Part shown: one piece after another, positions 12,620 through 64,000 of the stretch
Position numbering within the stretch: the first letter of the stretch is position 1
Layout of the letters: each line of letters opens with the position of its first letter
Source of the DNA: Megascapheus bottae
Taxonomy: Eukaryota; Chordata; Mammalia; Rodentia; Geomyidae
Assembly: GCA_024803745.1 (NCBI GenBank)
Contig: JANJXV010000013.1
Span: 16,613,501-16,677,500, forward strand
Length of the DNA: 64,000 nucleotides
Direction of reading: 5' to 3'
Position numbers and translations under genes: made by a program
The notes under the pieces: model-generated
The model's database searches: none
The model's input: the letters and a program-made list of their open reading frames with translations, nothing else
Told to the model about the DNA's origin: nothing

Positions 12620-15600
12620 TTACTTTTTCAGGTCATTGAGCACATCCTGTTTGGTGATTTTGGCCCATGCATCAGGAATTTTACCTGTATCTGTAAATTT
12701 CTTTTGATATTTTTCTTCTAAGTTTGACCTGAAGTGTGAGATGAACCATTTCCAGTATGGCTGACTGGATGAATCAGGGGTAATACTCCAGGTGGCATAA
12801 TCCCCTCCTGCCTGTCGGTAGTTCTTGTATGGGATTTCCTGGCCATTTCCTAAAAGCATGAAACGATCGCTTGCTACTGAAGTAGTACAGCAATCAATGA
12901 CAAACTGGTTTGTCTTATGCTTATGCCATCCATTGACAGCTTGAGGACGGTGGAAGGGGACACTGTGGTCTCCTTCGTGATTAGGAATTGTGTTAGTACA
13001 AATTGCATTACATAATGGACATTGTTTCCAGCAGCCACAGAGATGTTCAGAGAGGATTTTCTCAATTTCAGGGACCATCTCATCTATAGGCAGACTTGAA
13101 AAATTCTCTTCTACTTTCTTCATTGCTGGATTCAAAGCTGAACTCATTGCTTCTTTGAGAAACTCAATATCTTTTATCTCCTGGTGTTCAATATTTACCA
13201 GATCTCTTCGTGGAAGGATCAGATTGCTTCCTAGGTGATCACAGAACAAATCCAACCACCCAGATGCAGTGCTGCCTTTATCTTTAGTTACTGCAGTGGA
13301 TTCATGAATGGCAGAGAGAATGGTATTCTTCATGTCATCTAAGCTCATTTTAAAGAACATCTGTATTTTTTCACCTTTATTTGAACAGTATCTTTTAATA
13401 CAGTTTTCAATGTAGCTGCTAAAAAATGATTTTGTGTCATGAAGGTATTGCCAGTAATTATCAAAGTTTTCTTCTTCTGCTAGAGAAATAAGAATTTGTT
13501 TCTCTAGGTTTGCTCTGTTTCCATTGAATGCAGGGCAAGTAGCTCGCATTTCCCCGGCTATTTTAATGACCATCTTTCCCTGTATTGTGGCAGAGACAGC
13601 AGGGGTGAGCTTGTGCCACAGAAAATCAACAAATGTTGTGATGGAGGTGGCTCCTTGGCAGGAGATCTTAAAACTCATGAAAAAATCATCTTTCTTATTT
13701 TCCAGATAGCTCACAGGATCATTCGCCGCCTTGAATGCCCTGTGTATGTCCTTAAAAATTTTTGATGCTCTTTGGAACAAACACAAAGATAAGTCAATGT
13801 TGTATTTGCTTGTGAAAGTGTATCTTTCCTCAGTGAGTGCAGATTTTACCTCCTCATTTATTATTCTCAGTATTTCATGGAAATAACTTGCACTGTAATC
13901 ACTTTGTTGCTTACGAATATTGTTAACAGTTTCATTAAATCTTGAAACAATATGGTCAGTAGTCATATTAATGGATTCTCTATCATAAGCTTTTAATGTC
14001 CTTGTCATAAAGTTATATTTTTTACTCATTTTGACATGTTCATCATAATTGATTTGAAATTTTTCTCCACAATTACTCTTTAGTATGTCCACCAAGTTTA
14101 TCTCTTTTTGGAAATATTCCCAAAGGATATTTTCAGAATCTATATCAATATCGGGCTCTATGATTTGAGGAAGATCTGAAGACACATCATAAACCCATTT
14201 TTTCCAAAGTTGGTTGAATTTCTCATGTAATTCTTCCTCACTTAATTCTTTACCTTTTATGGTTAAGGCCAACTTTCGGCTTCTTTCAAGTAATTCATTT
14301 TCATAACCTGTCTTTTTCTTATGTAATCTTTCTTGATTTTTTTTAAACTGTATAAGTTCCTTGGCTTTCCTTTTGCTGTCTAGAATAAGTGCCTCTTTAA
14401 GGATTATTAGCTTATTTTCAAAATTTGCTTTCCATTGAATCAGTATTTCACTTTCTGGGTCTTCATTGAAATATTTTTCAAGCTCTTGCTTGATTGCTGT
14501 GTATTTTTCTGTAACTGGAGCCTCACATAAGCTTGTTTGGAGTGTCTGAATCTTTCCATTCTGAATTTGATTGTTCAACTGATTCTGCAGGTCGAGCACA
14601 TGACTCCTCAGCTCCCAGGTCCACTGGTTGTACATGGTTTCCAGTTTGCTCATGGCCATGACCTCTCGGGTGTTCCTGAAACTGAAAATAAAGTTCTCAT
14701 TTATCAGGGCTCTCCACAGATCATGAACTCGGGATTTCACATGTGATATCTTCAGGATGCTTCCCCTGGATTCTTGTTCTGCAGTCAAAAGAATTCTACT
14801 TCTCAGTTCTTGGATATTGTGGCTGTAGCGAGGATTGGGAGGGGCCATTGGGGGATTGCCATCCCAGAGGTGAGCAAAATAGTAGACATGAGTATTGACA
14901 TCAAACCTAATGACATCACTGAAGTGAGTTATGTCTGAGCACTCTTCTTGCTCAGCAGCTGTTACAGCCATTTCATCCAGTCTCTGCTCTAGACATCTTC
15001 GTCCTTCCATGGTTTGATCTTCAGCTGTAATATCTCCCACATTCTGATGGACAAAGAGACAACTTGGGGAGATTTTGACTTTCCTCATCCTCAAAAATGC
15101 TTGGACAGCTATTTGTAGTATATCCTGCATCTCCGATGGATTCTCTCCAAAAATATTGATGATGGTCAAGTTTCCAAGCCCAATTACAAAAGTGGCCAGT
15201 TCATTGTCCCAGTTCTGAGATTTATTATTGCGTTCTGGGGCCCGGAGTCCTTCTGTGTCTATAACCAGCACAAAGTCAAAGCCAAGTTCTTCTGTAAAGT
15301 TCTGCTCCACCTTCAGAAGCTGCATGTAGGCCCCCCTGGTACATCTGCCTGCACTGACACTGAACTGTAGCCCGAAAAGGGCATTGAGCAAGGTGGACTT
15401 CCCTGAGCTCTGCAGACCAAGGACAGAGAGAATGAAGATCCGTTTGTCTCCAAGTTTCTCAGAGACCTTGTCAAACACAGCGGACACCCACTTGAGAGGC
15501 ACATATGAGGCATCTCCATCCATCAACTCAATGGGAACTCCAGATAGCATCAAGTCTGCAACCATTTGGGGAAGGGAAAGGAAAAGAGTGTCTCTTGTAG

Positions 15601-18600
15601 AAGAAGTTTCTTCCAGGGCTTCATAGATCTGGCCAACTTCTCTGAGAAATTGCTCAATTCCCAAGGTACAGTCCTGAATCTCTGTGGAGATGGCTTCTAT
15701 TTGATTTTGCCAGAGTTGCAGGGAATTGCTCTTTTGTGCCTTTTGCTTTTCAGTTTGTACTTGTGACCACAAAGATGCTTGGTGTTCACGCAGTTTTTCC
15801 AAGTGTTCTGCTGTGAGGTTTTCCAACAACAAACTCAGCCACTGCAAGAAGTAGAGTTTGGTGTGAGTTTCTGAATGTTCTTGAAGAATTTCAAGGACGG
15901 ATCTCATTAAATCATTGAGAGGAAAGGCTTTCTCCAACTGCTGACATCGTATTATTCGTTTATATGTCTCAATCTCACTCTTATGTTGTTCAATGCTTCG
16001 ATTTCCTTTTTCTCTCAGATGGTAGAATTCTTTGTCTTTCTTACACCAAAGGTGCCACAGCTGTCCCTGAAGTGGTAGTAAGTTTTCTTTTATCTGAGAT
16101 AATTTTGTTTCTCCAAGGAGGGCCATGACAGTCCGTGCTTTTTCTTTGGCATCCTTACAGTCTCGCTGGTTTTCATCTACAAGGAAACCTTGTTTATGAG
16201 CAATCAAGGAACACTTTTCTAAGCTGAGAGCAGTATTGGAAATCTCTAACAAATGTCTGATTGTCCTTGTGAGCTCTTCTGTTAATTCACCTTCATTTTT
16301 ATTCCTAATGCCAATTTTCACTCTTCTCCCAGAATTGTTGGTCATGGATTTCTCTCTGTCATCCAGTAAGCAGATCACAGGTCTTGATGACAGGCACAGA
16401 TCACGGACCATTGTTTGGTTTTCTTTATTGTCATCAGAAGCTGACATGAGGACCACAATGAGAGAAGAGACCTCCTGCAGGAAGGTGAATTGCTCCTTAT
16501 GTTCCTTTGCATCTCCATGAAGATTAGTGAAGGCCACACAGTTGTCAAATCTGTCCTCTTCCTCCCCACCAGGACAGAACCAGCAGATTTCTACCACACC
16601 CCCCATCAAGAGACAGTCTCTGCTACTTCCTCTGCAGTGTCTGTGAAAAAACACATCATGTTTACGTTTACTGAGGATCCAGTTCATGATCTGAGATTTG
16701 GAGGCAGAGAGGCCATCTCCAACTCTAATGAAGGACACGATGGGGGTAGAGACCTGGCACATCTGCTGGTTCTTGTAGCTGTTCTTCTTCCCTTGTGGTG
16801 ATTCCCTTGCTTGTTGCCAACTTTTCCTAATTTGACTGAGAGACCAGAGAGAAAATTCAACTTCAGAAGTGCAAGGATTAGGCACCACAAGGGGGAGAGC
16901 AAACTGACAAATGGACAGTTTGGCCAAAATATATTGTCTGGCAAGATCATCTGCGCAGTGAAAAATGGCCATCTGGATGTCCATTGGGTGAATATGTGGC
17001 TTAGATTTAGTGGCTGAAGCACTAGTGACACTTTGGCTGTCTTCGAATGAGTCCTCATATGGATCAAAAGCTTCATTTTCCTCATTTGAAGCACTTTGAG
17101 AGATTTGGTTCTCTGTGTTTTTGTCATCTTTGAAGACCATGTGCCTTAACCCATAATCTAACATCAGTAGCTTCTGCAAGAAATAGAAGGGAAGTTCCTG
17201 CTCAGATTTGGGGTGGGTGTTATGCACTGAAGTTTTATAGATAAGATGGAAGTTACTTCTGCTCATCTTTTTTGGATAGTAATACTCTAAGCCTAGCCGT
17301 TTGAGTAAATCTAAGAAAGATTCATTTTCTATTACCTTGCATTTGTTGTTTATATCATTATATTGTTTATAGGATTGCTTCTTTCCATGGAGGAGACTTT
17401 GCAATTGTTTCTTCACATTGTCCATTTGCAAAGAAGAGATAGTGGCTTCATAATCACCATCAATGAGTAATTTCAAATCTTTCTCTAGGTTTTCCCAATC
17501 ATATTCTGCTCCAAGTTTGGTTAAGACATGCATAACTTCATTAGACAATGATTGTTCCATGTGCTTCCTCATTAGTGCCATTCGTTGCACTTTCTCTTTT
17601 GGAGAAATAGCTGCAACTCCAACTGTGGCTGTTAGACTAGTGAGTACCAGGAATGCTTGAGCTCTGTAATTGCAAATGATTTTGAGCTCCTGGTATTTGT
17701 TTAAGGCAGTCTGCATTTCATCTAGTAGGAAGTTTAACTCATCATACCCTAGGAGATACTGAAAAGTATTGTTTATTACCTGATAGCCTGTACCAGCTGC
17801 AATAGAAAGAAACAGGAACTCTATGTCTGTCTGTTCTGTTTTTTTGAGGTAATTCAAGAAGCAGCTGAGAGCCATGCTGACTTCATAGGTAGCCTTTCTT
17901 TGAGCTTCTTCCACCATTTCTGTGGATTCAGGTTTGATATTTACTTCCATGAGGTTATTTTGGATTTCTTTTAAGATTTCGATGAACTGAGAGAATTGTG
18001 TGATGTTGACATGTTCTGGCTCTGGCTCTGCTTCTGCCTGGTAGATCCACTGCATGATGGAATGAGCCTGAGGAAAGTTTGTCACTTTGTAGATGTGAGG
18101 ATCCAGAAGACTGCACAACTGAGATTTAACAAATTTAGTTTTATAAATGGGTGACTTTTTGCAAAAGTTAACAGTATTTACTAGAAAATTCTGCAGGTCC
18201 CAATCTGTGAGGCATATGTTAATCCAAATGTCATAATTTTCCATTTTATGACTCAACATTTGCATGAAATCTGTCAGTTGTTTAAGTTGCTCTTCAGGAT
18301 CGGACACCTCCCAGGACTTCACATCCTCTAGGAAAGCCCGAGCTTCCTTCCCAATACTCAGTAGTTCCTCTCCATCCTGGATCTGGGCAGCGAGGCCACT
18401 CAGAGCAGTGTAACTGTCCTTTAGGCAGATAGCCATCTGAAGGGGATCCTTAAAGTCACTTGCGTGGTTGGAGAGGATGATGTCCCAAATGGGCACCAGG
18501 TGAAGCCCTCGGTCAATGACATTCCAGGTTTGGTTGCTGGAAAGAAGGCCAGCTTTCCACTGGGCAAATCCATCTGCTTCTGCTGGGCCACCTATCTGGG

Positions 18601-19915
18601 CCACTGATAATTGAAGTGTGGTTTGGAGGTTTTGAAAACATTTACTCTGAGAGGCTATTTTGGAATGTGGATCTGATACATTCATACAAGGAGCAACTTG
18701 TACTCCAAATCCACTGTAGCTGCCCTTTATGTACATTTCCAGGGTCTCTTCTGCCTCCTTCTTCACCTCAGTCAGCTGCTCACTCTGGAAACCCTCTGCA
18801 GTGGCCTTCCACCAGTATATTCCTCCTAAGTGCAGAGGACCTTGGTTTGCATGAGAGCCAAATCTGAGGAAGAAGTTTTCAGTTCTGTGCCTCAGTAATG
18901 AGATCCTGTCTGAGTTTGTAGTTTGACCCAAGAGTTCTTCAATGCTTTTCAGTTCCTGGAGAGCAGGTGTGGAGAGCTGGAGTTGGTCTGTGGGAAAGTG
19001 GCAGGATGCCAGGGGGAGGTAGCAGAACTTGGATGAGCAGAAATAAGAATGTTCAGAGTGCGAATTTTGGGTTTCCTTGGATTCTGAATGCTTGCTTTGA
19101 TCTATGCCAGCTTCTAAACTAAATCCCCAACCTCCACCCTTGGCTGATGCAGTTATGCTGAAGGCTAGCTTCTCTATAGTCTGGGAGAACATGGATTCTT
19201 CTTGGGAAGATGAAAATTCTTTCATTTCCATCCATGTGCGCTGCTCAGGTCCAGAGAGTGAAAACTCCTTGGGGACACTGAGTAGCTCTTCTCTCTTCTG
19301 GATTAGGTCTTTTTGGTGGCTGGTTTTATATATTCCCTGTAAGGCCAGCCCTCCAGATGCCCTTTTTACCAGATCTCTATCTGGGAGACTTTGCCTGTAG
19401 TTCATTGTCTGGTTCATGAGATAGAGTTGTTTCTGTGTGTTTTCTATGACTTCCTGTAGGGGCTCTTGAGGCAATGGCCAGTATTCTTCAGGTATTTCCA
19501 TTGCTTGCCTCAGCTCAACTTCTTTTCTCTCTACTACCTCTTCCTGTCTGTGCCTCCCTTCTGACAGCAAGTCTTTCAGCTCCTGCAGTGTCTGTTCTGC
19601 CTGTTTCTGCCTTTTCTTTATCATCTGCATTGATGGTGAAGCCTGCAAGACTGAAATACTTTTCGATTGTGCTAGGTCAAACAGTTTTTCTAGAGCCTTT
19701 TTCTCCCATGGATGCTGTACCTGGGATTTTAGCTTCTGGAGGTCTTTTTCTTTTAAATATTGTAAGGATTGGGCACATATCACACCCAGATGATCCTGCA
19801 GCTTTGGCAACCAGTATTCAACAGGAAGTCCCACTTCTCTCAGCATCACTTGGAGATCTTGCTTCCTCTTGTCTTTGAGCAAAGGCTCCTCAGGGTGGTT
19901 TTCTGTTGTGGCCAT
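12620..19915 (-). CDS. GVIN1: Interferon-induced very large GTPase 1 (VLIG-1), intact single-exon ORF
   Basis: An uninterrupted 2431-residue ORF lies in one exon, matching the roughly 2.4-kb-residue, single-coding-exon layout of rodent Gvin1. The N-terminus (about 1-85, MATTENHPEEPLLKDKRKQ onward) is a small helical module. It is followed by long helical, Glu/Lys/Gln-rich segments and the URGCP-like core from about residue 860. The VLIG-type G domain has a P-loop GLQSSGKS (G1500, K1506, S1507), a switch I Thr in CTRGAYMQ, G3 DTEGL (D1553) and FVHQNVGD. Near the C-terminus is a probable metal-binding cluster (C2293, C2295, C2299, C2302, C2306, H2313, H2317) before FHRPQAV. Family members are interferon-induced and act in cell-autonomous defence. 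The human orthologue GVINP1 has long been listed as a pseudogene, whereas this copy is fully open. Which rodent Gvin paralogue is the strict orthologue cannot be decided here. Confidence 0.95.
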   Translation of the reverse strand: MATTENHPEEPLLKDKRKQDLQVMLREVGLPVEYWLPKLQDHLGVICAQSLQYLKEKDLQKLKSQVQHPWEKKALEKLFDLAQSKSISVLQASPSMQMIKKRQKQAEQTLQELKDLLSEGRHRQEEVVERKEVELRQAMEIPEEYWPLPQEPLQEVIENTQKQLYLMNQTMNYRQSLPDRDLVKRASGGLALQGIYKTSHQKDLIQKREELLSVPKEFSLSGPEQRTWMEMKEFSSSQEESMFSQTIEKLAFSITASAKGGGWGFSLEAGIDQSKHSESKETQNSHSEHSYFCSSKFCYLPLASCHFPTDQLQLSTPALQELKSIEELLGQTTNSDRISLLRHRTENFFLRFGSHANQGPLHLGGIYWWKATAEGFQSEQLTEVKKEAEETLEMYIKGSYSGFGVQVAPCMNVSDPHSKIASQSKCFQNLQTTLQLSVAQIGGPAEADGFAQWKAGLLSSNQTWNVIDRGLHLVPIWDIILSNHASDFKDPLQMAICLKDSYTALSGLAAQIQDGEELLSIGKEARAFLEDVKSWEVSDPEEQLKQLTDFMQMLSHKMENYDIWINICLTDWDLQNFLVNTVNFCKKSPIYKTKFVKSQLCSLLDPHIYKVTNFPQAHSIMQWIYQAEAEPEPEHVNITQFSQFIEILKEIQNNLMEVNIKPESTEMVEEAQRKATYEVSMALSCFLNYLKKTEQTDIEFLFLSIAAGTGYQVINNTFQYLLGYDELNFLLDEMQTALNKYQELKIICNYRAQAFLVLTSLTATVGVAAISPKEKVQRMALMRKHMEQSLSNEVMHVLTKLGAEYDWENLEKDLKLLIDGDYEATISSLQMDNVKKQLQSLLHGKKQSYKQYNDINNKCKVIENESFLDLLKRLGLEYYYPKKMSRSNFHLIYKTSVHNTHPKSEQELPFYFLQKLLMLDYGLRHMVFKDDKNTENQISQSASNEENEAFDPYEDSFEDSQSVTSASATKSKPHIHPMDIQMAIFHCADDLARQYILAKLSICQFALPLVVPNPCTSEVEFSLWSLSQIRKSWQQARESPQGKKNSYKNQQMCQVSTPIVSFIRVGDGLSASKSQIMNWILSKRKHDVFFHRHCRGSSRDCLLMGGVVEICWFCPGGEEEDRFDNCVAFTNLHGDAKEHKEQFTFLQEVSSLIVVLMSASDDNKENQTMVRDLCLSSRPVICLLDDREKSMTNNSGRRVKIGIRNKNEGELTEELTRTIRHLLEISNTALSLEKCSLIAHKQGFLVDENQRDCKDAKEKARTVMALLGETKLSQIKENLLPLQGQLWHLWCKKDKEFYHLREKGNRSIEQHKSEIETYKRIIRCQQLEKAFPLNDLMRSVLEILQEHSETHTKLYFLQWLSLLLENLTAEHLEKLREHQASLWSQVQTEKQKAQKSNSLQLWQNQIEAISTEIQDCTLGIEQFLREVGQIYEALEETSSTRDTLFLSLPQMVADLMLSGVPIELMDGDASYVPLKWVSAVFDKVSEKLGDKRIFILSVLGLQSSGKSTLLNALFGLQFSVSAGRCTRGAYMQLLKVEQNFTEELGFDFVLVIDTEGLRAPERNNKSQNWDNELATFVIGLGNLTIINIFGENPSEMQDILQIAVQAFLRMRKVKISPSCLFVHQNVGDITAEDQTMEGRRCLEQRLDEMAVTAAEQEECSDITHFSDVIRFDVNTHVYYFAHLWDGNPPMAPPNPRYSHNIQELRSRILLTAEQESRGSILKISHVKSRVHDLWRALINENFIFSFRNTREVMAMSKLETMYNQWTWELRSHVLDLQNQLNNQIQNGKIQTLQTSLCEAPVTEKYTAIKQELEKYFNEDPESEILIQWKANFENKLIILKEALILDSKRKAKELIQFKKNQERLHKKKTGYENELLERSRKLALTIKGKELSEEELHEKFNQLWKKWVYDVSSDLPQIIEPDIDIDSENILWEYFQKEINLVDILKSNCGEKFQINYDEHVKMSKKYNFMTRTLKAYDRESINMTTDHIVSRFNETVNNIRKQQSDYSASYFHEILRIINEEVKSALTEERYTFTSKYNIDLSLCLFQRASKIFKDIHRAFKAANDPVSYLENKKDDFFMSFKISCQGATSITTFVDFLWHKLTPAVSATIQGKMVIKIAGEMRATCPAFNGNRANLEKQILISLAEEENFDNYWQYLHDTKSFFSSYIENCIKRYCSNKGEKIQMFFKMSLDDMKNTILSAIHESTAVTKDKGSTASGWLDLFCDHLGSNLILPRRDLVNIEHQEIKDIEFLKEAMSSALNPAMKKVEENFSSLPIDEMVPEIEKILSEHLCGCWKQCPLCNAICTNTIPNHEGDHSVPFHRPQAVNGWHKHKTNQFVIDCCTTSVASDRFMLLGNGQEIPYKNYRQAGGDYATWSITPDSSSQPYWKWFISHFRSNLEEKYQKKFTDTGKIPDAWAKITKQDVLNDLKK

Positions 19916-19935
19916 GGCTGTGAAAAACAGACACT
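19916..19935 (-). promoter_or_regulatory. GVIN1: 3' splice site of the GVIN1 coding exon
   Basis: The minus strand reads GTCTGTTTTTCACAG/CC ATG GCC. The AG occupies 19919-19918 and the exon would start at 19917, two bases before the ATG. This fits a separate untranslated 5' exon, as known for mouse Gvin1. That exon and the interferon-responsive promoter were not located in the repeat-rich DNA above 20 kb. Confidence 0.75.
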
Positions 19936-20040
19936 CAGTTACCCTGATGGTGCTAATCAGAAGGGTTAACTACATGGCCCAAAGGGTGACTTTACTGATG
20001 ATGCATGTCTATGAGGCTTTCTCATCCCCTCTTTTAGCTG

Positions 20041-20092: not shown

Positions 20093-20477
20093 ATACATTA
20101 AACATTGTTTCTATTCATTAAAATTTAAAATTTATTTTTATTGATATTGTAGAGTTAATATATACCAATCTATATTTTAAACACCATTTTTGTGTGTTTA
20201 TGTAAGATTATTGTTGGTATTTTCACCATGAATTGCCTTGCCCTTTTAGATACTAGTGAGTTATAATTTACCTTGATATTTACACTACTAATTCTTACAC
20301 AGAACCAATTGCACAGAGATTTGCATTAACCTGAGGGATAACATTTGATAATGTACATGATTTCCTAGGCTGGTGCTTATTTTTACAATGTGTTCCTGTC
20401 AATTGATTACAATTGATTACATTTTCTCTATTAAGTTCTATGAAGCCCAGGTTGACTGGTTCCATTTGTATCTCCCC

Positions 20478-20632
20478 CTTTCTTCTTCTTCCTCTTCCTC
20501 GTCCTCTTGCTCCTCCTCCTCCTCTTGCTCCTTTTCCTCCTCCTCCTCCTCCTCCTCCTCCTCCTCCTCCTCCTCCTCCCCCTCCTCCTCCTCCCCCTCC
20601 TCCTCCCCCTCCTCCTCCTCCTCTTTCTTTTT
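20478..20632. repeat. Long (TCC)n polypyrimidine tract
   Basis: About 150 bases of almost pure C/T built on TCC triplets, 560 bases upstream of the GVIN1 exon. It produces long Ser- or Pro-only ORFs that are not genes. Confidence 0.95.
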
Positions 20633-20945
20633 GGTTAGTTGTGGGGCTTGAACTCCGTGCCTAGGAGCTTTCTCTACCACTAAGAGCTTTCACAGTACCA
20701 CTTCTGGTTTTCTTGTGGTAAATTGGAGATAAGAATCTCATAGCTCAGCATCCTGAGTAGTTAGGATTACAGGCATGAATCACACACACCCTGTTTCCTT
20801 CTTCATTTTTTGAGGCAGGCTTTCACTATGTAGCTCAGGTGGTCTGAAACTTGCTATGTAGTCCAAGCTAGCCTTGAATTGGAAATTTTTCTGTTTCAAG
20901 TCTATTTAGAGCTTGGATGTAGTCATATTCCATAATACCTGGCTT
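20633..20945 (-). repeat. Reverse Geo-type SINE and B1-like monomer
   Basis: A Geo-type SINE at 20633-20790, then a B1-like reverse monomer (TCACTATGTAGCTCAGG). Confidence 0.7.
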
Positions 20946-51749: not shown

Positions 51750-54190
51750 ACTTTATGTTCTGTCACAATAGAAGGAATTGGAATCCAGCAAATGCTAACA
51801 GTCCTTCCAAGTAACAAGAGTACCTTATACATTTAATGTAGTTTTCCAGCCTAAAAATCCCAGTGTTTCCACTGGATGTCAGTAAAGGACTTTTGTAAAA
51901 TACTCCAATTCACATGCTATAACTAGCATTTATAGTATCATTAAAGCAACAAATCTGTAATGTTGTGAGGAACCCTATTGGCCCTAGCTCATGAATCTTT
52001 AAGAGAATCTGGTGTAGCTTCAAGAGTCATATAAATTCAGATGTTTCCTGATAGCTTCATGAATAGGATACAATAAAATTTCCAGATGCTTTCTTCCCAA
52101 ACTAAACTTACAAACTTCGTGCTTTTTGTTTGACTTTTGAATGTGACAGAGTAAGTTATTGGGAAGAGATCATTAGTTACCCTGGCCCATGTAATTCATG
52201 GTCATTTTACCATTTATACTACTGCCTCTTGTTTTAGGTCGATAGTTGTTTTCTGCTGTTTATATGATAAATAAGCATTACCATGATAGATAGTTATGTC
52301 TTCATAGTAATACATTTGTATTATATTATTAATATAGTTAATAACAGTACTTTTAATTGAATTTAAGTCGTTGCTTCTCATGAGGTTGTGCAAGTAAACA
52401 ATATAAATAACTTTTTGGGAAAAAGTATCTATTGGTGTCCATCTTACATGAATGGCAGTTGTTCATTTTTAAAAACAATAATAGAAATACTAAAGAAATA
52501 ATTAAATATATAGTCAAATATCAATATTCCTTAGTTCACATCTTGAAGTTTTCATGTCATATGGAATATGGTGATTTTTAAAAAATATATTTTTATTGTA
52601 ACTAATAGAAGGGTTACATTATATTCACCAGATAGAAGGTGCATTACTTCCCACGTTGCTACCCTTTGTCATGTTTTTGTCCCCATTTTCCTCCCCCCAC
52701 CCCCTCCCTAATGTTTGTTTCTTGAGGGCTTATTTTTTAAGTTTCTAGAGCCTATCGTCTCTTTTAGACTACAGTAAATTAATAGAGGAAAACTTGGATA
52801 CTTGGGCCTCTGCAGCTAATATGTCCTTGGAGTTCATTTTTTTTTGATGTTCTCCCTACTCTAGAACTCAACATTGTGTTAAATTAAGCACTTGTCTATA
52901 TTTAAGTGATTTTTAATTGTTCTATTTAGCATGTTCAATTAAAATGGACAAAAGAGAAGACTAGCACTTCTCTTTTCCAATAGTGTATGTAAGGAAACAA
53001 TCTCTATTCAGACAATATGTTCATTCTGGCAGGAGTAGACTTATACACATGTATATTTTTTATTTTACATTTTTACTTTTAGCCATATGTCATCTTTAAG
53101 TTCTCTATAGTTGCTTAGTGACATTCATAATTAAATTGAAATTGCATTTCCTAATTGCTACGAAAATATGCTATGCACTAGTATTCAGCAATCCCAGTGA
53201 AGTTTCTTTTTACTATATCTGTGTCCATTTATCCAGACTAACAATCTTACTTCTTTCAGAGGATCTAATGTCTTTCTTCTACCTAAAATTTTTTCCTTTA
53301 CTTGGTAATTCTCATTCATACATCATCCTTGTCCCCCTCCACCCGCCTCAACTGAAAAGTATTTTCTGATGAGTTCCTACCTTTGTTTAAAGTACTTCCT
53401 CTGTGCTCCCTTATATCCACTTAATCATTTCAATGCTATCAAATCTTTTTTTGCTGTAACTAGTAATATTTATTTCTTCCATTTAAGCAGTATTAAAATA
53501 GAATATGTGTAGCATACTATGGGAGTTTTGAGGAACTCTAAGCTGATTAGGAAAATCATAAGATCACACAAGCACTGATAAACTTTATAAACAGCATGAG
53601 GGGGCAATACAATGAGGCTATCTTTTGCTTTTTAAAATATAATACCCAAGGGTGTGTCTTGTATTTTTCTATGTCTTTAATTCTAAGAAAGACCCATGGT
53701 TCATAAGAAGGGCTTGACTGTGAATTAAGTGATGTAAGGAAGGTAGAAAAGAGGAAGGAATACAGAGAATAAAGAAGGGAGAAAGGGAGGAAGGGAAGAA
53801 GAAAAAAGAGAAGGAGGATAAGATGGATAAACTTCAATGTACTCCTAGATTAAAAAAATTATTAAAGAGGTGATATATAGAGGGATTACAGTTAGAAAAG
53901 TCAGACAATGAGCATTTCCAGATCTAGACCTTAAACTTCTCTTTTTATTTGCTCAATTATATTGTTTAATAGGTTGGTTAACCAGAAAAACATATTTTAT
54001 GTTATTGTAAACAAGTATTTAAGCCTTTTGCAAAACAATAATGTAAAGACTTACATAATCATATTCTAAAACTCCCAAGACTATTTTTACTTGGCTGGGT
54101 TTAATTACCTGAATGACAATGCCATCAAAGAAGGGAATGCACCAAAACAGAAAAGATAGATGAGAATCTTGCTTTTTTGTTTTGTTTTGT
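51750..54190. other. Intergenic 3' flank of the fusion gene
   Basis: Contains an L1 3' fragment (52573-52705, minus) and a purine-rich tract (53755-53822). No further VLIG homology was seen below about 54195. Confidence 0.5.
53944..53949 (-). terminator. Candidate poly(A) signal of the fusion gene
   Basis: AATAAA on the minus strand, about 290 bases beyond the stop at 54237. Confidence 0.35.
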
Positions 54191-54236
54191 TTTATCATAA
54201 TTCATAGGTGGCAGTAACTCTTTGTAACAGAGAGCA

Positions 54237-57200
54237 TCAACCAAAGTTTTGGAGGTTTGTGTAGGCCAACTTAAAATTAGTAAAGAATTCTTCTTTTTTG
54301 CTGTCTAGATACAGGGCAGTGTTGTTTGTCTTCTTAAATGCAGTGCACATCTTTTTAAATCTCTTGGCTGCCTCACGGAATAGCTCTAGTGCAAGTTCTA
54401 GTTTGTATTTGTTAGTTAGCAAGAATGTGACTTCTTGAGATGCAGCCTTGGTTTCAGTATGGATCACTTGCAGAATTTCATGGAAGTAACTAGAACTATA
54501 TCCCTCATTCTGCTGTTCTCTTACTTGTATGATTTCTTTAACCATTTCCATAATTCTAGCTGTAGTCGTCTTTATGATGTGTTTTTCAAACTCATCCACA
54601 GGAGGCCCATATACTTGTGTGTTTTGAGAAGTGATAACATGTTTAGAATAATTGATAGAAAATGGTTTCTTTGCATCACGGTATCTAATTATGTTAACAA
54701 TGTTGGGATACTGTTTAAAATGAGCCAGCAGAATGTTTTCTAGCTCAATATCAATATCAGGATCCTCAGCAGGTGGAAGTGCAGTAGGCAACAAAATAGT
54801 GATGTCTTCTGACCAGATCTTGTTGAACAGATCTCTGAGCTCCTTCTCTTGTGGTTCTGTGTTATTGGAGGACACAACTACCTCTCTCATTTTTTCTAAT
54901 AACTTACGCTCCAAGTTTATCTCTTCTTCTTTTAAAAAGTCTTGTATTTTCTTTCCACTTATTAGATCTTCACATTTTCTCATGACTTCTACTATGAGTT
55001 CCTCTTTCAGTGTTTCCAAGTCCTCTTCAAATTTTCCTTTCCATTGAGCTAATATATCTCTGTCTTGATCTTCTTGAAAACACCTTTGAAATTCTTGCTT
55101 AATAGAGTCATATTTTTCCCCAACTAGGGTATTAATTGAGGTCTTTTGAATCTCCTTAATTAAGCCATTTTTAATCTGATTGGTCAGCTGACTCTGCAAG
55201 CCCAGCACATAACTTCTCAGCTCCCAGGTCCAACTGTTGTACTTGATCTCTAGTTTATTCATAGCCACAACCTCTCGGGTGTTCCTAAAGCTAAAGATGA
55301 AGCGTTCATTCATTAAGGCCTTCCATAATTCCCGTATCCGGATTTTAAGTTCTGATATTTTCAAAATACTTCCCCTGCAGTCCTCTTTGGCAAGCTTAAG
55401 AATCTTGCTTTTCAGCTCCTGGACATTGTGGCTGTAGCAGGGATTTGGAGGTGCCATTGGAGGATAGCCTTCCCAAAGCTGAGCAAAGGAATGGACGTGC
55501 ACCTTCACATCAAACTTAATAACATCACTGAAGTGGCTTACATCTGAGCACTGTTCATGAGTCGCAGCAGCAAGAGCAATTTCATCTAATCTGTTTTTTA
55601 ACCACCTTTGTCTTGCCATGCTTTGATTTGTATCTATAATATCTTCTACATTCTGATGAACAAATAGACACTGTGGGGAGATATTCATTTGTTTCATCCT
55701 GAGAAAAGCATGAAGAGCTATTTGGAGAATATCTTGCATTTCTGATAGATTTTCTCCAAAAATATTGATTAGAGTTAAGTTTCCAAGTCCTATGACAAAG
55801 GTTGCCAACTCATTTTCCTTGTTCTTTGCTTTGTCCATGAGCTGTGGAGCTCCCAGTCCTTCTGAGTCCACAACAAGCACAAAATCAAAGCCCATCTGTT
55901 CTCTGAGCATCTCTTCCACCTTTAGAAGCTGCATGTAGACTCCCTGGGTATGCTTCACAGCACTGAGACTGAACTGTAGCCCAAACATTGCATTCAATAG
56001 AGTGGACTTGCCTGAGCTCTGCAGGCCAAGGACTGAAAGAACAAACACTTGTTTGTCTCCAAGTTTCTCAGAGACCTTGTCAAAAATAGCTGTCACCCAC
56101 GTCAGTGGCACATATGAAGCATCTCCATCCATCAGTTCAATAGGAGCTCCAGATACCATCAAATCAGCAGCCATTTGGGGAAGGGAGAGGAACAGTTCAT
56201 TTATTTGTGGGGATGCTTCTTCCAGAGCTTCATAGATCTGGCCCACTTCTCTCAGGAGATGCTCAATCCCCAGAGTGGAATCATGGATCTCTCTGGAAAC
56301 AGCTTCTAGTTCAGCTTCCCAGTGTCTGACAGAGTCTACCGTTGACTGCTTTTGCTTCTCTGTTTGCACCTGAGCCAGCAGGGAAGTATGCCTCTGATGA
56401 AGTCTTTCTAAGTGTGTCTTGGTTAGCTGGTCCATCAAAATGCTCAACTTTTGCAGAAAGTAGAGCTCTGTGTGAGTATCTGGGTGTGGCTGTAGACTTT
56501 CAAGTAGGAATTTCATCATGTCATTAAGGTTAATTACTTTGTAATATTGCTCACAACGTATATTTTGTTTTTCCTTTTCAATCTCATTCTTGTATTGTTC
56601 AATACTCCTGTTTCTCTTTTCTCTCAGATGATAGAATTCCTTGTCCTTTTTGCACCAATCATGCCATAGCTGTCCCTGAAGGGGTAGAAAATTTTCCTTT
56701 ATCTGAGATAATTGTACTTTCTTAAAGAGCTCCATAATGCTGTCTGCTTTTCTTCCTGCTTCCTGGCAATCTGTTTGATCCACATCAAGGATGAATCTAT
56801 ACTTTCTAGCAATGTTGGCATAACTATTCAAACTACAAGGTGATCTAGATTCCTTCAGCATCTGTGTTAATGTAGTTGTGATTTTATCTGCTATTTCTAT
56901 TTTATGTAGATTCTTGATACCAATTCTCACTCTGTGAGTATCATACTTCTCATCAACAATATTTTCTACATTTTCAAGCAAACAGATAAGAGGTTTGCAT
57001 ACATCCCAAAATTCACATAGAATGGAACTCTTCATTTTTTTAACATCTGAAGTTGACAGGAGTACAATCACTGAGGAGATCTCATTCAAGAACTTAACTT
57101 GATCCTCATGCATTTCAGCATTTCCATGCAGATTGGTGAAGGCAATACAGTTTTCAAACCTATCCGTAGTTCTCCCACTTGGGCAGAACCAGCTGATTTC

Positions 57201-58016
57201 CACCATTCCTTCTGTCAATAGACAGCTATTTTTGCCGGTGTTAGCATGATGGTGAAAAAAGTTGTCATGTTTGCCGTTACTCAGTATTGAATTCAAAATT
57301 TGTGACTTTGATACAGAGACAAAGTTTCCAACTCTTATGAAAGATACAACATGTGTAGGTTGCCAACTAATCAGCTGATTATCATAATTCTTAATTTTTT
57401 TCTCCCAACCTATTTTTTCCACTTCTCTCCAGCTTCTTCTAATATGACTAAGAGACCAAAGAGGGAATTCAATTTGGGATTTGGTGGGACTGGGTACCAA
57501 AAATGGAAGTGCAAATTGACAGACAGAAAGTTTGGTTAAAATATGTTGTCTTGTAAAGTCATCTGCACAGTGGAAAATTGCCATTTGTATGTCCATTGGG
57601 TGAATACAGGATTTTGCTGTGGCTGATTGTACTTCATTGATAGTGAAAAAATCCTCAAGTGTTGGTTTTCTTTCTGATTGGTTGATTTTTTTCAATGACT
57701 GAGATCCATTAGAAATGGTATCTCTATAAGCTATGTACCTTAAATGGTAATCTAATACCAAAAGCTTTTCTAGGAAAAAATATGGTAGATCTTCCTCAGC
57801 TCTTGGTTGAACACCAAGGAAGGAGGTTTTATTTATCAAAAGCAAATTAACTTTGGTCATCTTCTTGGGGTAGTAACACTCCAGATTAAGTCGCCTGATC
57901 AAATCATAAAAGTGTTGGCTTTTTATTACTTCTTTATCACTACTTGTTTGAAGATCTTGGGGATGAAGATTAGTTTCCTTGGGTTCTTTCTTGGAGTTAA
58001 AGATATTTTTAATTTT
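54237..58016 (-). CDS. URGCP/VLIG GTPase core exon (exon 3 of the fusion gene)
   Basis: This single open exon has 1259 codons plus TGA. It starts after a strong 3' splice site (TTTCCTTTCATTCCTTTCTAG at 58037-58017), whose TAG would be an in-frame stop if not spliced. Homology to GVIN1 begins near HFYDLIRRLNLECYYPKKM, matching GVIN1 FLDLLKRLGLEYYYPKKM at residue 867. The G domain is strongly conserved (LGLQSSGKSTLLNAMFGLQF, VIGLGNLTLINIFGEN, PPMAPPNPCYSHN). The last aligned stretch is YLDSKKEEFFTNFK, after which an indel shifts frame to a TGA at 54239-54237. The exon has no SINE insertion, although its flanks do. Long openness suggests constraint or recent origin. Confidence 0.9.
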   Translation of the reverse strand, partial: KIKNIFNSKKEPKETNLHPQDLQTSSDKEVIKSQHFYDLIRRLNLECYYPKKMTKVNLLLINKTSFLGVQPRAEEDLPYFFLEKLLVLDYHLRYIAYRDTISNGSQSLKKINQSERKPTLEDFFTINEVQSATAKSCIHPMDIQMAIFHCADDFTRQHILTKLSVCQFALPFLVPSPTKSQIEFPLWSLSHIRRSWREVEKIGWEKKIKNYDNQLISWQPTHVVSFIRVGNFVSVSKSQILNSILSNGKHDNFFHHHANTGKNSCLLTEGMVEISWFCPSGRTTDRFENCIAFTNLHGNAEMHEDQVKFLNEISSVIVLLSTSDVKKMKSSILCEFWDVCKPLICLLENVENIVDEKYDTHRVRIGIKNLHKIEIADKITTTLTQMLKESRSPCSLNSYANIARKYRFILDVDQTDCQEAGRKADSIMELFKKVQLSQIKENFLPLQGQLWHDWCKKDKEFYHLREKRNRSIEQYKNEIEKEKQNIRCEQYYKVINLNDMMKFLLESLQPHPDTHTELYFLQKLSILMDQLTKTHLERLHQRHTSLLAQVQTEKQKQSTVDSVRHWEAELEAVSREIHDSTLGIEHLLREVGQIYEALEEASPQINELFLSLPQMAADLMVSGAPIELMDGDASYVPLTWVTAIFDKVSEKLGDKQVFVLSVLGLQSSGKSTLLNAMFGLQFSLSAVKHTQGVYMQLLKVEEMLREQMGFDFVLVVDSEGLGAPQLMDKAKNKENELATFVIGLGNLTLINIFGENLSEMQDILQIALHAFLRMKQMNISPQCLFVHQNVEDIIDTNQSMARQRWLKNRLDEIALAAATHEQCSDVSHFSDVIKFDVKVHVHSFAQLWEGYPPMAPPNPCYSHNVQELKSKILKLAKEDCRGSILKISELKIRIRELWKALMNERFIFSFRNTREVVAMNKLEIKYNSWTWELRSYVLGLQSQLTNQIKNGLIKEIQKTSINTLVGEKYDSIKQEFQRCFQEDQDRDILAQWKGKFEEDLETLKEELIVEVMRKCEDLISGKKIQDFLKEEEINLERKLLEKMREVVVSSNNTEPQEKELRDLFNKIWSEDITILLPTALPPAEDPDIDIELENILLAHFKQYPNIVNIIRYRDAKKPFSINYSKHVITSQNTQVYGPPVDEFEKHIIKTTTARIMEMVKEIIQVREQQNEGYSSSYFHEILQVIHTETKAASQEVTFLLTNKYKLELALELFREAAKRFKKMCTAFKKTNNTALYLDSKKEEFFTNFKLAYTNLQNFG

Positions 58017-61000
58017 CTAGAAAGGAATGAAAGGAAATGACTTATCACTCAATAATAAGTATTCATTAAGATATGAATGAAAATATTAATTAGGTTTCCA
58101 AATGTTAATTGAAATTTTCTATGTGCTAGACAGTAGGTTAATGGAAAAAATATAATTCAGAATCCAACCTGGAAGGATTAAAACTTGACATGAGAGTTCT
58201 GAACAAGTATATATTTAACCATACTACACTCTTATATAAATTAAGACATAATAATAGTATGTTCAAAATGCACTGGTAACACAGATTTTTGAGGGATGCA
58301 AAAATGAGGAAGGCTTTAGCAAACTGATGTATCAGGTAGTCATAAAAACTGTATGTGGGACCCGGGAACTTGTAGGGTGCTTGCCTAGCATGCACAAAGC
58401 CCTGAGTTCGATTCCTCAGTACCACATACACAAAAAGGCTGGAAGTGGTGCTGTGTGTCAAGTGGTATAGCACTATCCTTGAGAAAGCCCAAGAATGGTG
58501 CCCAGGTCCTGAGTTCATGCCCCAGTACTGGCAAAAACAAAGTGTATGAGGAGAGAAAATAGAATCTAAAATGAAGTACTGTAGAAACAAACCTAACACA
58601 AGATTAATAGTTTTTTAGGTGCTGTATTCTGGAATGAGTTAGATAGTTCTCAGATAGTAGTTAGGTAGTTGAAGCAACCTAGATAAAGAGAATAGAAAAG
58701 CCAAGACAAAGATATGTGAACATTGTATATATTATAGTTACAGAATGTAATATAGTATATGTGAACAGAATTATGAAATGTTGGTTGGATTTTAGTCAAT
58801 AACTTACATTTTTTATAATTTATACACTATTAATCCCATTTTGGAGAGAAATGGTTCATAAAAATCTATCTATGTACCTGTCAAGACAGAAATGATGAGA
58901 GAGCAAGATCTTGCTGGGATTATGGTGATTTTGTTTTGTTGTTCAGGACACTTTTGAAACATCTTAGTGAGAGGAGTAGGGGAGCATCTTCATGATCTAA
59001 CTACTTCCCTCCATTCCAAGGCAAAAATGTTTTCCACAAAGTTGATTACAAACCTTGGATATTGTTTTTGACTCTTTGTCTCCATTCACTCCTGCTTCAT
59101 TTTTCCGTTTTTTTTCGGTTGACGTTTTGCCAGACTTTTCGTTAGAAGATCCAGCTTTGGAAGGAAAACAATTTTCATTAATCTCATCATGATTAAGACA
59201 TGTAGATGACTCTTTCCTCCTTAAATTGCTAGTCGTGCAGTTATTTAAAGTAAGTAATTTTATTAGTAGTATTTATCTTTCAGCTGTGACCTAAGAAAAA
59301 AATGTGGATATTTTACTTTATGAGAATAGTTATCAAACAAAAGTAGCTATTTCTTTGGATGAGGAATAAGAAGTATAAAACAGCACAAACAGTACAATAA
59401 TCAAGAGTAATTGGGGAATTGATAGAGTACTTTTTTGCATTTTGGGTTTCTCTTTTATTAGTATATTTTTTTTTTTTGCTTGTCCTGGGCTTGAGCTCAG
59501 GGCCTGAGCACTGTCCTTGGACTTTCTCAAGGTTAGAGCTCTACCACTTGAGCCTCAGAATCACTTCAGGCTTTTTTTTTCTATGTGTGTTGTACGGAGG
59601 GATTGAACCTAGGTCTTTGTGCATGCTAGGCAAGCACTCTACCACTAGGCCAAATTCCTGGCCCCTGACCCCTTTTATTAGTATTTTATTTATTTATTTA
59701 TTTGTTTGTTTGCATTTTTTAATTGTAATTAGTAAAAGGGTTACATGATATTTGCCAGATAGAAGGTGCATTAATTCACGTACATTGATACCCTTTCACA
59801 TGTCTTCGTACCCATTTCCCTCCCCCCCCACACCCCCTTATTAGTATTTTTTAATTTTTATATTTTGGTGCCAGTCCTGGGGCTTTCTGAGGGCAGTGTC
59901 AGATTTTTTTTTCTCAAAAGACTAACACTCTACCACCTGAGTCACAGCTTCACTTCTGGCTTAAAATTATTATTATTTTTGGCTTTTTATTGGAAATTAA
60001 AGTCTCACAAACTCCTTCTTGGGCTGGCTTTGAACTGCAATCCCCATATTTCAGTTTCCTGAGTAGCTAGGATTACAAGTGTGAGCCATTAGTACTCAGT
60101 TAAGATTTTTTTTAAAAATTAAAGCCATATATTTTAATAAATCATGTTTAATCTTATTATCTTTCAATATATTATTTGAAATTAACCAATTCCCCAGACT
60201 GAATGGTCAGGTAGGCCTCATAGCCTCTTGTCAATATTTAAGTTAAAAAAGATTTTCAATTCAAATTCAAATTTCAATGACTTATAAAGAGTCAAGGCCT
60301 CTTCGTCTTTTAAAGCTTTAACATGAAAAACTGGTATATGCAAATCATATATATAAAGTATATATGTGTTGTAGCAGCAAAGGCAATAAAAGCAAAACAG
60401 ACAAGCGAGACAACATTAAATCAAAAAGCTTCTGTATAGCAAAGAAAACAAAGTAAAAAAGGAACTCTATGGAACCAAAAAAGAGTTGCAAGCTATTTTA
60501 TAAAGGGTTCATATTTAAAATATGTAAAAATTTCCTAGAATTCCATAGCAAACTCCAACCAACCAACCCAAAACCTCCAAATAAATTGACTTAAAAATGG
60601 GTAAAAGAGGAGCCAGGAACATGGTCTAGTGGTAGGATGCTTGCCTAGCATGCATGAGGACCTGGGTTTGATTCCAGAAAAGCCCATTGTGGTGCTGTGG
60701 CTCAAGTGATAGAGTGCTAGCCTTGAGAATGCCCAAGGACAGTGCTCAGGCTCTAAGTTCAAGCCCCAGGACTGGCAAAAAGAAAAGAAAAGGAAAAATG
60801 GGTAAAAGAATTAAAAAGGAATTTCTCCTGAGAAAATACCAGCAAAGCTTGAGAAGGTGGTGGATCAAAACATTCCTCTGTGCTACTTCATGGATGAAAA
60901 CAGACAGGACAATAGAAAGAGAGAGGAATATCAAACATTAAAAATCAAAAGAGGAAAAAGAACAGCTACAAAGGCAAGGATAGACAGAGAAAAGGAGGAA

Positions 61001-62580
61001 ATAATCAACAATGCTAACCTTGCCTCCCTGTGAAGGGACTCTAGCCAAAACCACAATCTAAACTAAGCCTGGCATCCTTGATGACTGCAGAGTGGAGATC
61101 CTAGCTGTAGGAGAAACTATTTTTTTTTTCATATATGAAACTATCAGTTCTTACAAGCTTTAAATTCAGTGTAGAAATTTGGTATGACAGTGAAAATGAT
61201 TTGACAATGGAGAAGAAATCCATTGTGTTCCTCATATCTCTTAATGCTTAAGTCAGGTGGCCTTTTGAGAGGGGCCTATTATTTGTGATTGAACTACTCT
61301 GGAGATCTGAAACAAGGATCAATTCCAAGTCAGGGAGCTGGATGTTACTTTGGTACAGTGTCAGGGTTAGATACAATCATGAAAGACAGTCATGGAGAGG
61401 GGGAGGGTTGTACATGGACTGGCTAAGTTTAAGCAGATATGAGCTTATGCTGTGAGAGACATGATGACTCGTGACTTGGATCTCAGTGGCAAGTAGTAAA
61501 CCAATTACCAGTGGAATACTGTAGAGGCTAAGAGCTTCAAGTCTTTGGAGGACAGATTGTTTAGCCTCTGGAGCTGCCCCAGTGCTGCAGGTGGTTTGAT
61601 GCCCAGCAAGACTGAGAGCTCTTTGTCCTAGTCCTAAAGATTGTTTGGTTTCAGCAGCCTCTTGTCTGCCACAGGATGGTTCATTGATGGATGGGGAAAG
61701 AAAATACTGAGACCAGCAAGCAGGAAAGCTTTTGAAGTGGTGTGCTTTTCTTCCCCTCTTTTCCCCCATGCACTTGGAGGAATCTCATCAGCTTGTATGT
61801 TTGCAGCCCCTAAGTGCTCAAACTAGGGGCCACCAAAGTGAGGGGGAGGCTGTCCAATTCACAGGTCACAGTTGAAAACCAGTATTCAGACCAATAATTG
61901 CATATACATATTCATGTCAGCAAACCGCCAAAAGGTAGCTAAAACTCAAAAGTCTATCAATAGCTGAGTGGACAACGTGGGCAGCCATTAAAAGCTATAA
62001 GGCATAAAAGAAATATTACAGCATGAAGGTCAAAAACTTGCAAAATAAGTTAGACAAAAGTTAGATATACTATATAGTTCATATGTAACACCCAGAATAT
62101 ATCCATATGAAAACACCTATAGCTGATTTCCAGGGCTTAGGTAGGATAAGTGAATGGAGAGACTGCTTAATGGATAAAGTTCATAACTTTGGTGTAAGAT
62201 GCATTGTACTCACAAACTGACATGTTGAATTAAAACTTCTTTGTCCAACTACTTAAGGATACTGTAAAAGAAAAGAAAAATGTATTTGTTCTAGACTTAC
62301 GTTTTTCCATTGACTGGCCAAACTTCTCTGCCAGTCTGCGTTGATTTGTGGCCTTCAGGACCTCTTGGGTTACAATCTTGGAATATTCTTCCCCATAGTA
62401 TTTGATCAATAGCTCAGCAAGTGCTAGTGCAGTTTTTGCTTTCTCCAGAGTACCTCGAGCAATATAGTGGTACCCTGGAGCAAGATGTATGCTCTGCAGT
62501 TGGAACTTGAACTTTTCAAACTCCTCTTCTAAAAGTTCCTCCAGGATGTCAGGAATGCATGTCTTTGATGTGTGTTCCAT
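54237..62580 (-). CDS. Predicted PYD-linker-VLIG GTPase fusion gene, 3 exons
   Basis: Proposed join on the minus strand: 62580-62301, 59154-59054, 58016-54237. That is 4161 nt encoding 1386 residues. Residues 1-93 are a pyrin domain, 94-127 a basic Ser/Lys-rich linker, and 128-1386 the URGCP/VLIG core aligned by eye with GVIN1 residues from about 855 to 2080. The GTPase has P-loop GLQSSGKS (K797) and G3 DSEGL (D844). Phases agree: exon 1 ends with one base of a codon, exon 2 supplies two, and exon 2 to exon 3 is phase 0. Relative to GVIN1 it lacks the first 850 residues (replaced by the PYD) and about 350 C-terminal residues. A PYD normally recruits ASC-like partners, so a role linking a giant GTPase to inflammasome signalling is inferred. 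Each exon is well supported; that they form one transcript is prediction. The alternatives are a separate pyrin-only gene beside a decayed VLIG copy. Confidence 0.65.
58357..58540 (+). repeat. IDL-Geo SINE in intron 2 of the fusion gene
   Basis: A forward dimer with GAGTTCGATTCCTCAG, antisense to the gene. Confidence 0.85.
59054..59154 (-). CDS. Basic-linker exon (exon 2 of the fusion gene)
   Basis: A 101-nt exon between acceptor TTGTTTTCCTTCCAAAG/CT (AG at 59156-59155) and donor TCCAAG/GTTTGT (59053-59048). With the carried base it encodes P plus 33 residues, from GSSNEKSGKTSTEKKRKN to GDKESKTISK, a charged Ser/Thr/Lys-rich linker like those after the PYD in PYHIN proteins. The acceptor has A at -3, which is less common than C or T. 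The same frame stays open upstream to 59272 with similarly polar sequence, so the true 5' edge could be further upstream or another small exon could exist. Confidence 0.6.
59470..59665 (-). repeat. IDL-Geo SINE in intron 1
   Basis: A reverse dimer after a T run, in the same orientation as the gene. Confidence 0.85.
59690..59835 (-). repeat. L1 3' end fragment in intron 1
   Basis: Matches the 27290 copy (GAAGGTGCATTAATTCAC and ATTGATACCCTTTCACATGT). Confidence 0.75.
59863..60102 (-). repeat. 7SL/B1-Geo SINE in intron 1
   Basis: A reverse composite ending GAGTAGCTAGGATTACAAGT. Confidence 0.75.
60365..62220 (+). repeat. L1 ORF2 end and 3'UTR pieces in intron 1
   Basis: L1 ORF2 wording at 60365-60608 (AAAAGCTTCTGTATAGCAAAG) is interrupted by an IDL-Geo SINE at 60609-60785. 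L1 3'UTR wording resumes at about 61880-62220. The sequence between is unrecognised. Confidence 0.6.
62301..62580 (-). CDS. Pyrin-domain exon (exon 1 of the fusion gene)
   Basis: The ATG at 62580 has a good Kozak context (A at -3, G at +4). The 93 residues carry a PYD of the MEFV/NLRP type: IPDILEELLEEEFEKFKFQL at 9-28, ARGTLEKAKTALALAELL at 41-58, YYGEEY at 61-66 and EVLKATNQRRLAEKF at 73-87. The six-helix length is complete with no stop or frameshift. The exon ends AAAAAC/GTAAGT (donor 62300-62295), a perfect 5' splice site, leaving one base of codon 94. Reading through the donor adds only meaningless sequence ending in a Phe-rich tail, which supports splicing there. Confidence 0.88.
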
Positions 62581-62707
62581 TCTGTGCTACTAAATCCAGA
62601 GAAAATAATAACCCTGCTGTTATTGACCTGAAATGGAAAGATGATTATGGAAACTCATAGGAATGGTGAGGTTATATTATTATTATTGTTGTTGTTGTTG
62701 TTGTTAT

Positions 62708-62895
62708 TTACTAGTCCTGGGGCTTTAACTCAAGACCTGAGCACTGTCCTTGGGCTTTCTCAAGGCTAGAGCTCTACCACTTGAGCCACAGCACCACTTC
62801 TGGCTTTTTCTATGTATGTGATACCGAGGAATTGAACCCAGGTTGCCCTGCATGCTAGGCAAGCACTCTACCACTAAGCCAAACTCCTGGCCTGG
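62708..62895 (-). repeat. IDL-Geo SINE upstream of the PYD exon
   Basis: A reverse dimer preceded by a TTG/TTA run (62675-62708). GGTGAGGTTATATTAT is duplicated on both sides (62665 and 62894). Confidence 0.88.
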
Positions 62896-62971
62896 TGAGG
62901 TTATATTATATATGAGGCAAATGCTTGTAGTCAAATCAGAAGAAAGAAGCCAATGTGAGATCAGAGGCTGT

Positions 62972-63395
62972 TTTTTTTATTGTAATTAATAGAAGGATTA
63001 CATTATATTCACCAGATAGAAGGTGCATTACTTCACAAACATTGCTACCCCTTCTCATGTTTTTGTCCCTATTTCCCTCCCCCATCCCCTCCCCTCATCT
63101 TGTTTCCCCCCTTCCCTATCCTATTTCAAATAAACAAATAAACATATATACAATATATCAAATAACAAGGTAAGATAATGTAACAATATGAGATAACCAA
63201 GGGACAACACAAGAGATGAGAAATAACATAGTCCATTAAGAACAACAATCACACATTGTATGGCTATTGTTTCTATATCCTGGAGGTCCTTTCATTTAGC
63301 CTCATCCTATAAGGCCTTCTATATCTAGGTTTTACCCTATTGTAAACCTCTGCTAGGAAAGTACAAGGTTTATACTAATTATGACAAATGATGTT
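62972..63395 (-). repeat. L1 3' end
   Basis: About 420 bases colinear with the 27290-27720 L1 tail, ending AATAAAAAAAACAGCC on the minus strand. Confidence 0.75.
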
Positions 63396-63401
63396 TATTT
63401 T

Positions 63402-64000
63402 TCCAGTCCTGGGACTTGAACTCAGGGCTTAGTCATGGTCCCCAAGCTTCTGTTGCCCAAGGCTAGCACTCTACCACTTCAGCCACAGCACCTTTACCGG
63501 CTTATTGATAAAGTACTAACAATTATATTATTTTCAATTCTTGATGTTTGCACAGGAGCTTACTAGTGTCAGTAAGTCTTCCAAGGCTTATAAAAGGATT
63601 AAAAAATCTTTGTTAGGTTACATTGACTTTTTTTTTTAAAAGAGAGTCCAGATGTCATGACATTTATTAAAAGGCATGGTACAATGCTATATATTAGGAA
63701 AGTAGAGATATCAAATAATAGTAAGCAAATACAAACTGAAGAAAAACTGAATATACTACAGTGTTCAGAAGCTTGAATGAACCATGCACTATGAATTTAG
63801 AAACTATATTTTAGGTTACATTAACTTTTACTTTATTATTTCCCCCTTTCCATCAAAGGGAAGACCATGGTAATGAAGGACTGCCAGAGTCATTATTGCC
63901 CATTACTTGGGGAAAAGTTTATGATGCTAGGAAGGCTCATTCCTAAAAATCATGTTCCACAGAGGAGGGACAGAAGTCATAATACTAAGACATAAGCAGA
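63402..64000. other. SINE fragment and unassigned upstream DNA
   Basis: A reverse Geo-type fragment at 63402-63502. The rest is AT-rich. No first exon or promoter of the PYD gene was identified before the window ends. Confidence 0.5.

Follow-up and report, generated by a model that had tools for sequence, protein, structure and literature searches.

Interferon-induced GTPases of mammals, such as the GBPs, help inflammasomes without carrying a pyrin domain (PYD) of their own, and the Pyrin protein combines its PYD with a B-box and a coiled coil, to which a B30.2 domain is added in people. URGCP is built on the core of the very large GTPases (the VLIG family); it lacks the N-terminal part found in GVIN, is not known to carry a PYD, and has a shorter tail. 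Coating of cytosolic bacteria (Burkholderia) by the human VLIG protein GVIN1 is a recent finding (available part of PMC11974893). In zebrafish, the CARD-bearing, interferon-gamma-inducible GTPase Gbp4 joins Asc specks and depends on both Asc and its own GTPase (available part of PMC4932187). The present analysis concerns a 64,000-nt stretch of the Megascapheus bottae genome (contig JANJXV010000013.1, here C13, positions 16,613,501-16,677,500 of the forward strand), referred to as the window, in which an exon encoding a PYD is followed on the same strand by an exon encoding a VLIG core. An earlier reading of the letters alone, hereafter the sequence-only reading, had proposed that these exons belong to one gene. 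The locus probably does hold a real PYD-linker-VLIG-core gene of three coding exons, intact and protein-coding, with a predicted product of 1386 residues.

The candidate gene is laid out as follows, in window coordinates; matches to the introns were counted by BLAST, self included, in the 264 kb examined (555 N).

62301..62580, minus strand: exon 1, ATG and PYD, 93 codons plus 1 nt, with a GTAAGT donor from 62300
59155..62300, minus strand: intron 1, repeat-rich, 256 matches
59054..59154, minus strand: exon 2, the linker, 101 nt, residues ~94-127, rich in K, S and E, net charge +4
58017..59053, minus strand: intron 2, containing repeats, 76 matches, with a good acceptor ahead of 58016
54237..58016, minus strand: exon 3, 3780 nt, the VLIG core (URGCP-like domain, GTPase domain and tail), 1259 codons plus stop

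The PYD exon, the basic linker and the 3.8-kb VLIG exon lie on one strand at the coordinates originally claimed for them. Joined together, the exons give 280 + 101 + 3780 = 4161 nt, or 1386 codons whose sole stop is terminal, and the linker shifts the frame from phase 1 to phase 0; the phases and the divisibility by three that had been read from the letters both hold. Exon 2 is located in an 888-bp low-copy island. In BLAST searches, exons 1 and 2 matched only themselves across the 264 kb, and exon 3 matched only itself and a neighbouring GVIN gene.

The identity of the first exon is clear, and a profile search with Pfam PYRIN (PF02758) agreed with the sequence-only reading: positions 4-76 of the 76 in the profile were matched with a score of 65.5 bits, the cut-off being 22.9. 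Its best match among solved structures was the PYD of Pyrin (2mpc, 56.9 bits), with ASC and others at 42 bits or less. A six-frame search of the genome returned 16 PYRIN places including the candidate, 15 of them free of internal stops; the loci that we take to be Mefv, Nlrp3, Pycard, Nlrp6 and an Nlrp10-like gene were named by reading their translations. Mefv is the closest of the nine other PYDs of the genome that were compared (36/74 residues identical, against 30/81 for Pycard) and has the same exon end and phase. The candidate PYD carries a one-residue insertion seen in none of the nine. In a tree that took in ten of the 16 PYD places and left out six, the grouping of the fusion with Mefv was weak (support 66). 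The candidate differs from Pyrin in what comes after the PYD, which is a GTPase core instead. A second PYD was not found in the 264 kb, nor was a VLIG match found within 3-4 kb of the nine other PYD places. If the 16 places were scattered at random, the expected number of PYD exons lying by chance within 5 kb upstream of one given gene on its strand would be about 1.4e-5, although the real chance exceeds this figure because immune genes cluster.

Exon 3 matched two Pfam families over their full lengths, PF25496 (URGCP; 305.8 bits, profile 1-299 of 299) and, following it, PF25683 (URGCP_GTPase; 390.6 bits, profile 1-396 of 396). Its GTP-binding motifs are intact, with a P-loop GLQSSGKST at residue 791 and a DxxG-type DSEG at 844. 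A sequence comparison at E 0.01 matched no solved structure to the VLIG part, and NCBIfam offered no model. Only two VLIG genes were found in the 264 kb, the candidate and a GVIN gene 34 kb away that served for comparison.

12620..19969, minus strand: GVIN, intact, full-length, single-exon, in a frame that runs for 2449 codons from stop to stop, with 18 codons ahead of its first ATG

The VLIG part of the candidate aligns to GVIN residues ~836-2103 with 658 of 1277 positions identical (52%), and the two proteins share the order of a URGCP-like domain followed by a GTPase domain. They differ in that about 835 N-terminal residues of GVIN are replaced in the candidate by the PYD and linker, and about 345 C-terminal residues are absent. 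GVIN consists of a single giant coding exon, unlike the candidate, in which 1386 amino acids are divided over three exons. URGCP resembles the candidate in missing the N-terminal part of GVIN and departs from it in having no known PYD and a shorter tail. The neighbouring GVIN gave no PYRIN match in a Pfam scan. Given the absence of both GVIN ends, to describe the VLIG part of the predicted product as a core is both right and important. In human, the longest open reading frame of GVIN1 has 1808 codons (available part of PMC11974893). No remnant of the GVIN residues outside the aligned part was found near the candidate, from 20.5 kb in the window to 30 kb past its end, at E ≤10 (best E 0.37). 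On this search, in which every match had E 0.37 or worse, we rejected the idea that exon 3 is a broken piece of a GVIN gene whose remainder lies next to it. A low-complexity frame with glycine runs (20298-20660, minus strand) lies just upstream of GVIN.

The junctions between the exons were assessed with a simple weight matrix applied over positions 52001-64000. The GTAAGT donor of the PYD exon, singled out in the sequence-only reading, proved near-consensus and ranked 7 of 525, and the strong 3' splice site noted before the 3.8-kb exon was upheld by an acceptor before 58016 ranking 7 of 832 (score 9.7). The acceptor of the linker ranked 40 of 832, and the linker as a whole scored highest among the 174 phase-compatible, stop-free exons that could be drawn between exons 1 and 3. 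The most telling splice point is the end of the PYD exon, which matches that of Mefv: past the shared Ala-Glu codons there are ten codons and 1 nt, then GTAAGT, and this arrangement is identical in Mefv exon 1 of the same genome. As in Mefv, the PYD is carried on its own exon with a phase 1 end, and in this genome Nlrp3, Pycard and Nlrp6 likewise have their likely donors in phase 1. Because the acceptor of exon 3 directly follows an in-frame stop, exon 3 must either be joined to an exon upstream of it or have its translation begin internally.

Comparison of the VLIG part with GVIN over 1250 aligned codons gave a synonymous divergence (dS) of about 1.7, which is saturated, and a ratio of nonsynonymous to synonymous divergence (dN/dS) of 0.20. 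By segment, dN/dS was 0.175 for the URGCP domain, 0.175 for the GTPase domain and 0.207 for the tail, while the short segment ahead of the URGCP domain was saturated and yielded no ratio; in all four segments, the proportion of nonsynonymous differences was less than half that of synonymous ones. Divergence at codon positions 1, 2 and 3 was 0.33, 0.24 and 0.51. Since human and mouse differ by a dS of about 0.6, the candidate and GVIN parted long ago, and their split probably predates the diversification of placental mammals. In simulated neutral decay, 0.02 substitutions per site introduced about 3 stops and 0.2 introduced about 22. A neutral copy would have gathered stops, so the VLIG part has been functional through most of its past. 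On these comparisons, the candidate is best read as an old paralogue of GVIN under long purifying selection on its VLIG part. The age at which the PYD was joined is not given by this selection, and comparison of the PYD with that of Mefv (37/92 residues identical, third-position divergence 0.53) yields no useful selection ratio because the two are too diverged.

An unlikely alternative is that the locus comprises two adjoining genes, one giving a PYD-only decoy when exon 1 is read beyond its donor and the other a short VLIG whose translation begins at an internal methionine. Reading through the donor does yield a 116-residue PYD-only open reading frame, the first methionine inside exon 3 (residue 180 of the model) stands ahead of the URGCP domain, and PYD-only proteins occur in other mammals. 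Two separate genes are, however, disfavoured by several features: a near-consensus GTAAGT donor that agrees in codon and phase with that of Mefv exon 1, a strong acceptor placed right after an in-frame stop, and between them a top-scoring linker with exactly the phase needed. A very improbable variant in splicing would send the PYD exon directly to an acceptor within exon 3, so that the linker is left out along with 247 nt of exon 3. That acceptor, before 57769, is in the right phase and scores 7.8, and the joined frame is open for 1270 amino acids, but the acceptor before 58016 scores higher and the linker came first of 174. Either route is predicted to yield a PYD-VLIG protein. Ownership of the PYD by a nearby NLR, TRIM or PYHIN gene was rejected: from 20 to 62.6 kb the minus strand has 24 other frames of at least 85 codons, and in the 20 that were scanned, which lie between 24.3 and 61.8 kb (one frame contains the linker exon), nothing matched Pfam above its cut-off, and hence no NACHT, B30.2, CARD, HIN or caspase domain. 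Six of the frames matched weakly, all below the cut-off and to no domain of the kind that partners a PYD.

It is also doubtful that the VLIG copy is recently dead or dying and that the PYD exon stands beside it by chance or local rearrangement. Both the N-terminal and the C-terminal part of GVIN have gone with no detectable trace, as such decay might have it, yet 1259 codons remain intact at a dS of about 1.7, dN/dS in the tail is like that of the rest, the 5' break falls at a good acceptor before the URGCP domain, and the PYD exon is intact with its near-consensus donor. Several observations nevertheless weigh against the three-exon gene as an intact, interferon-responsive fusion. The donor of the linker (GTTTGT) ranked 49 of 525 and is the weakest site, making the linker the weakest exon. 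Selection on the VLIG part does not demonstrate a junction between the PYD exon and exon 3, and constraint on the PYD itself is plausible, not proven. A gene inactivated no more than ~0.02 substitutions per site ago might show no sign of it, as the simulated chance of zero stops over that interval was 0.055. The C-terminus, some 345 residues short of that of GVIN, may reflect a recent clean deletion, and the missing remnants give no date for the truncation because a clean deletion leaves none. Interferon induction is unsupported because the nearest full site resembling an interferon-stimulated response element (ISRE) is distant and compatible with chance; it lies at C13:16691409 on the strand of the gene, 15.3 kb upstream of the PYD exon, and is one of three in the 264 kb. 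Two ISRE cores and a palindromic site resembling a gamma-activated sequence (GAS) occur within 180 bp about 8 kb past the end of the window (72097-72276), upstream of the PYD exon, and counts of ISRE and GAS motifs over 10 kb equal the regional average, at chance level.

The interpretation originally placed on the locus had two parts, which fared differently. The fused gene model is favoured by the phases, the Mefv-like exon end, the purifying selection seen in the VLIG part, and the lack of a rival PYD partner in the frames scanned; the inflammasome link gained no such backing, having been drawn from the domain only, and it is in this sense that we infer an inflammasome role. If the three-exon gene is expressed as modelled, its GTPase would bind GTP and self-assemble on some target, for instance a vesicle or the surface of a bacterium, an assumption made for the core because human GVIN1 was reported to coat Burkholderia. 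Assembly would cluster the PYDs, which could then seed filaments of ASC or of another PYD protein and thereby trigger inflammasome signalling or, with lower probability, damp it. The main alternative function would be that of a decoy. The nearest precedent, as far as the available part of its description goes, is zebrafish Gbp4, in which an interferon-inducible GTPase is fused to a death-fold domain and acts via Asc; Gbp4 is of the GBP family and has a C-terminal CARD, in contrast to the VLIG core and N-terminal PYD of the candidate. More tentatively, and with less than even confidence, the candidate could represent an undescribed old VLIG branch of PYD-GTPase inflammasome sensors, surviving in this lineage, which would form a lattice on an intracellular target and recruit ASC directly, leading from coating to pyroptosis in one molecule.

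A protein that unites a PYD with a giant-GTPase core would provide a direct physical link from coat formation to ASC, in a design akin to that of Gbp4 with its CARD (on the portion of that report available), and both halves would be accessible to ordinary cell assays. The sequence-only reading knew of no described mammalian PYD-VLIG family. That statement stood for the open-licence literature, where none of the papers listed concerned a PYD-VLIG protein as judged from titles and the starts of abstracts; it does not extend to subscription papers, annotations or the genomes and proteomes of other mammals, which were outside this scope, and the candidate may already be annotated somewhere.

The candidate is flanked on one side by cadherin-repeat frames (C13:16552574-16573164), which from their translations we take to be DCHS1-like, and on the other by four frames (16725513-16762637) presumed on the same basis to encode olfactory receptors. 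This resembles what we take to be the human order, DCHS1-MRPL17-GVINP1-OR2AG, with MRPL17 outside the comparison. An Nlrp10-like frame with PYD and NACHT lies 1.28 Mb from the candidate, and in platypus a TRM locus of about 1.3 Mb is bordered by NLRP10 at one end and by a GVINP1-like gene at the other (available part of PMC7615758).

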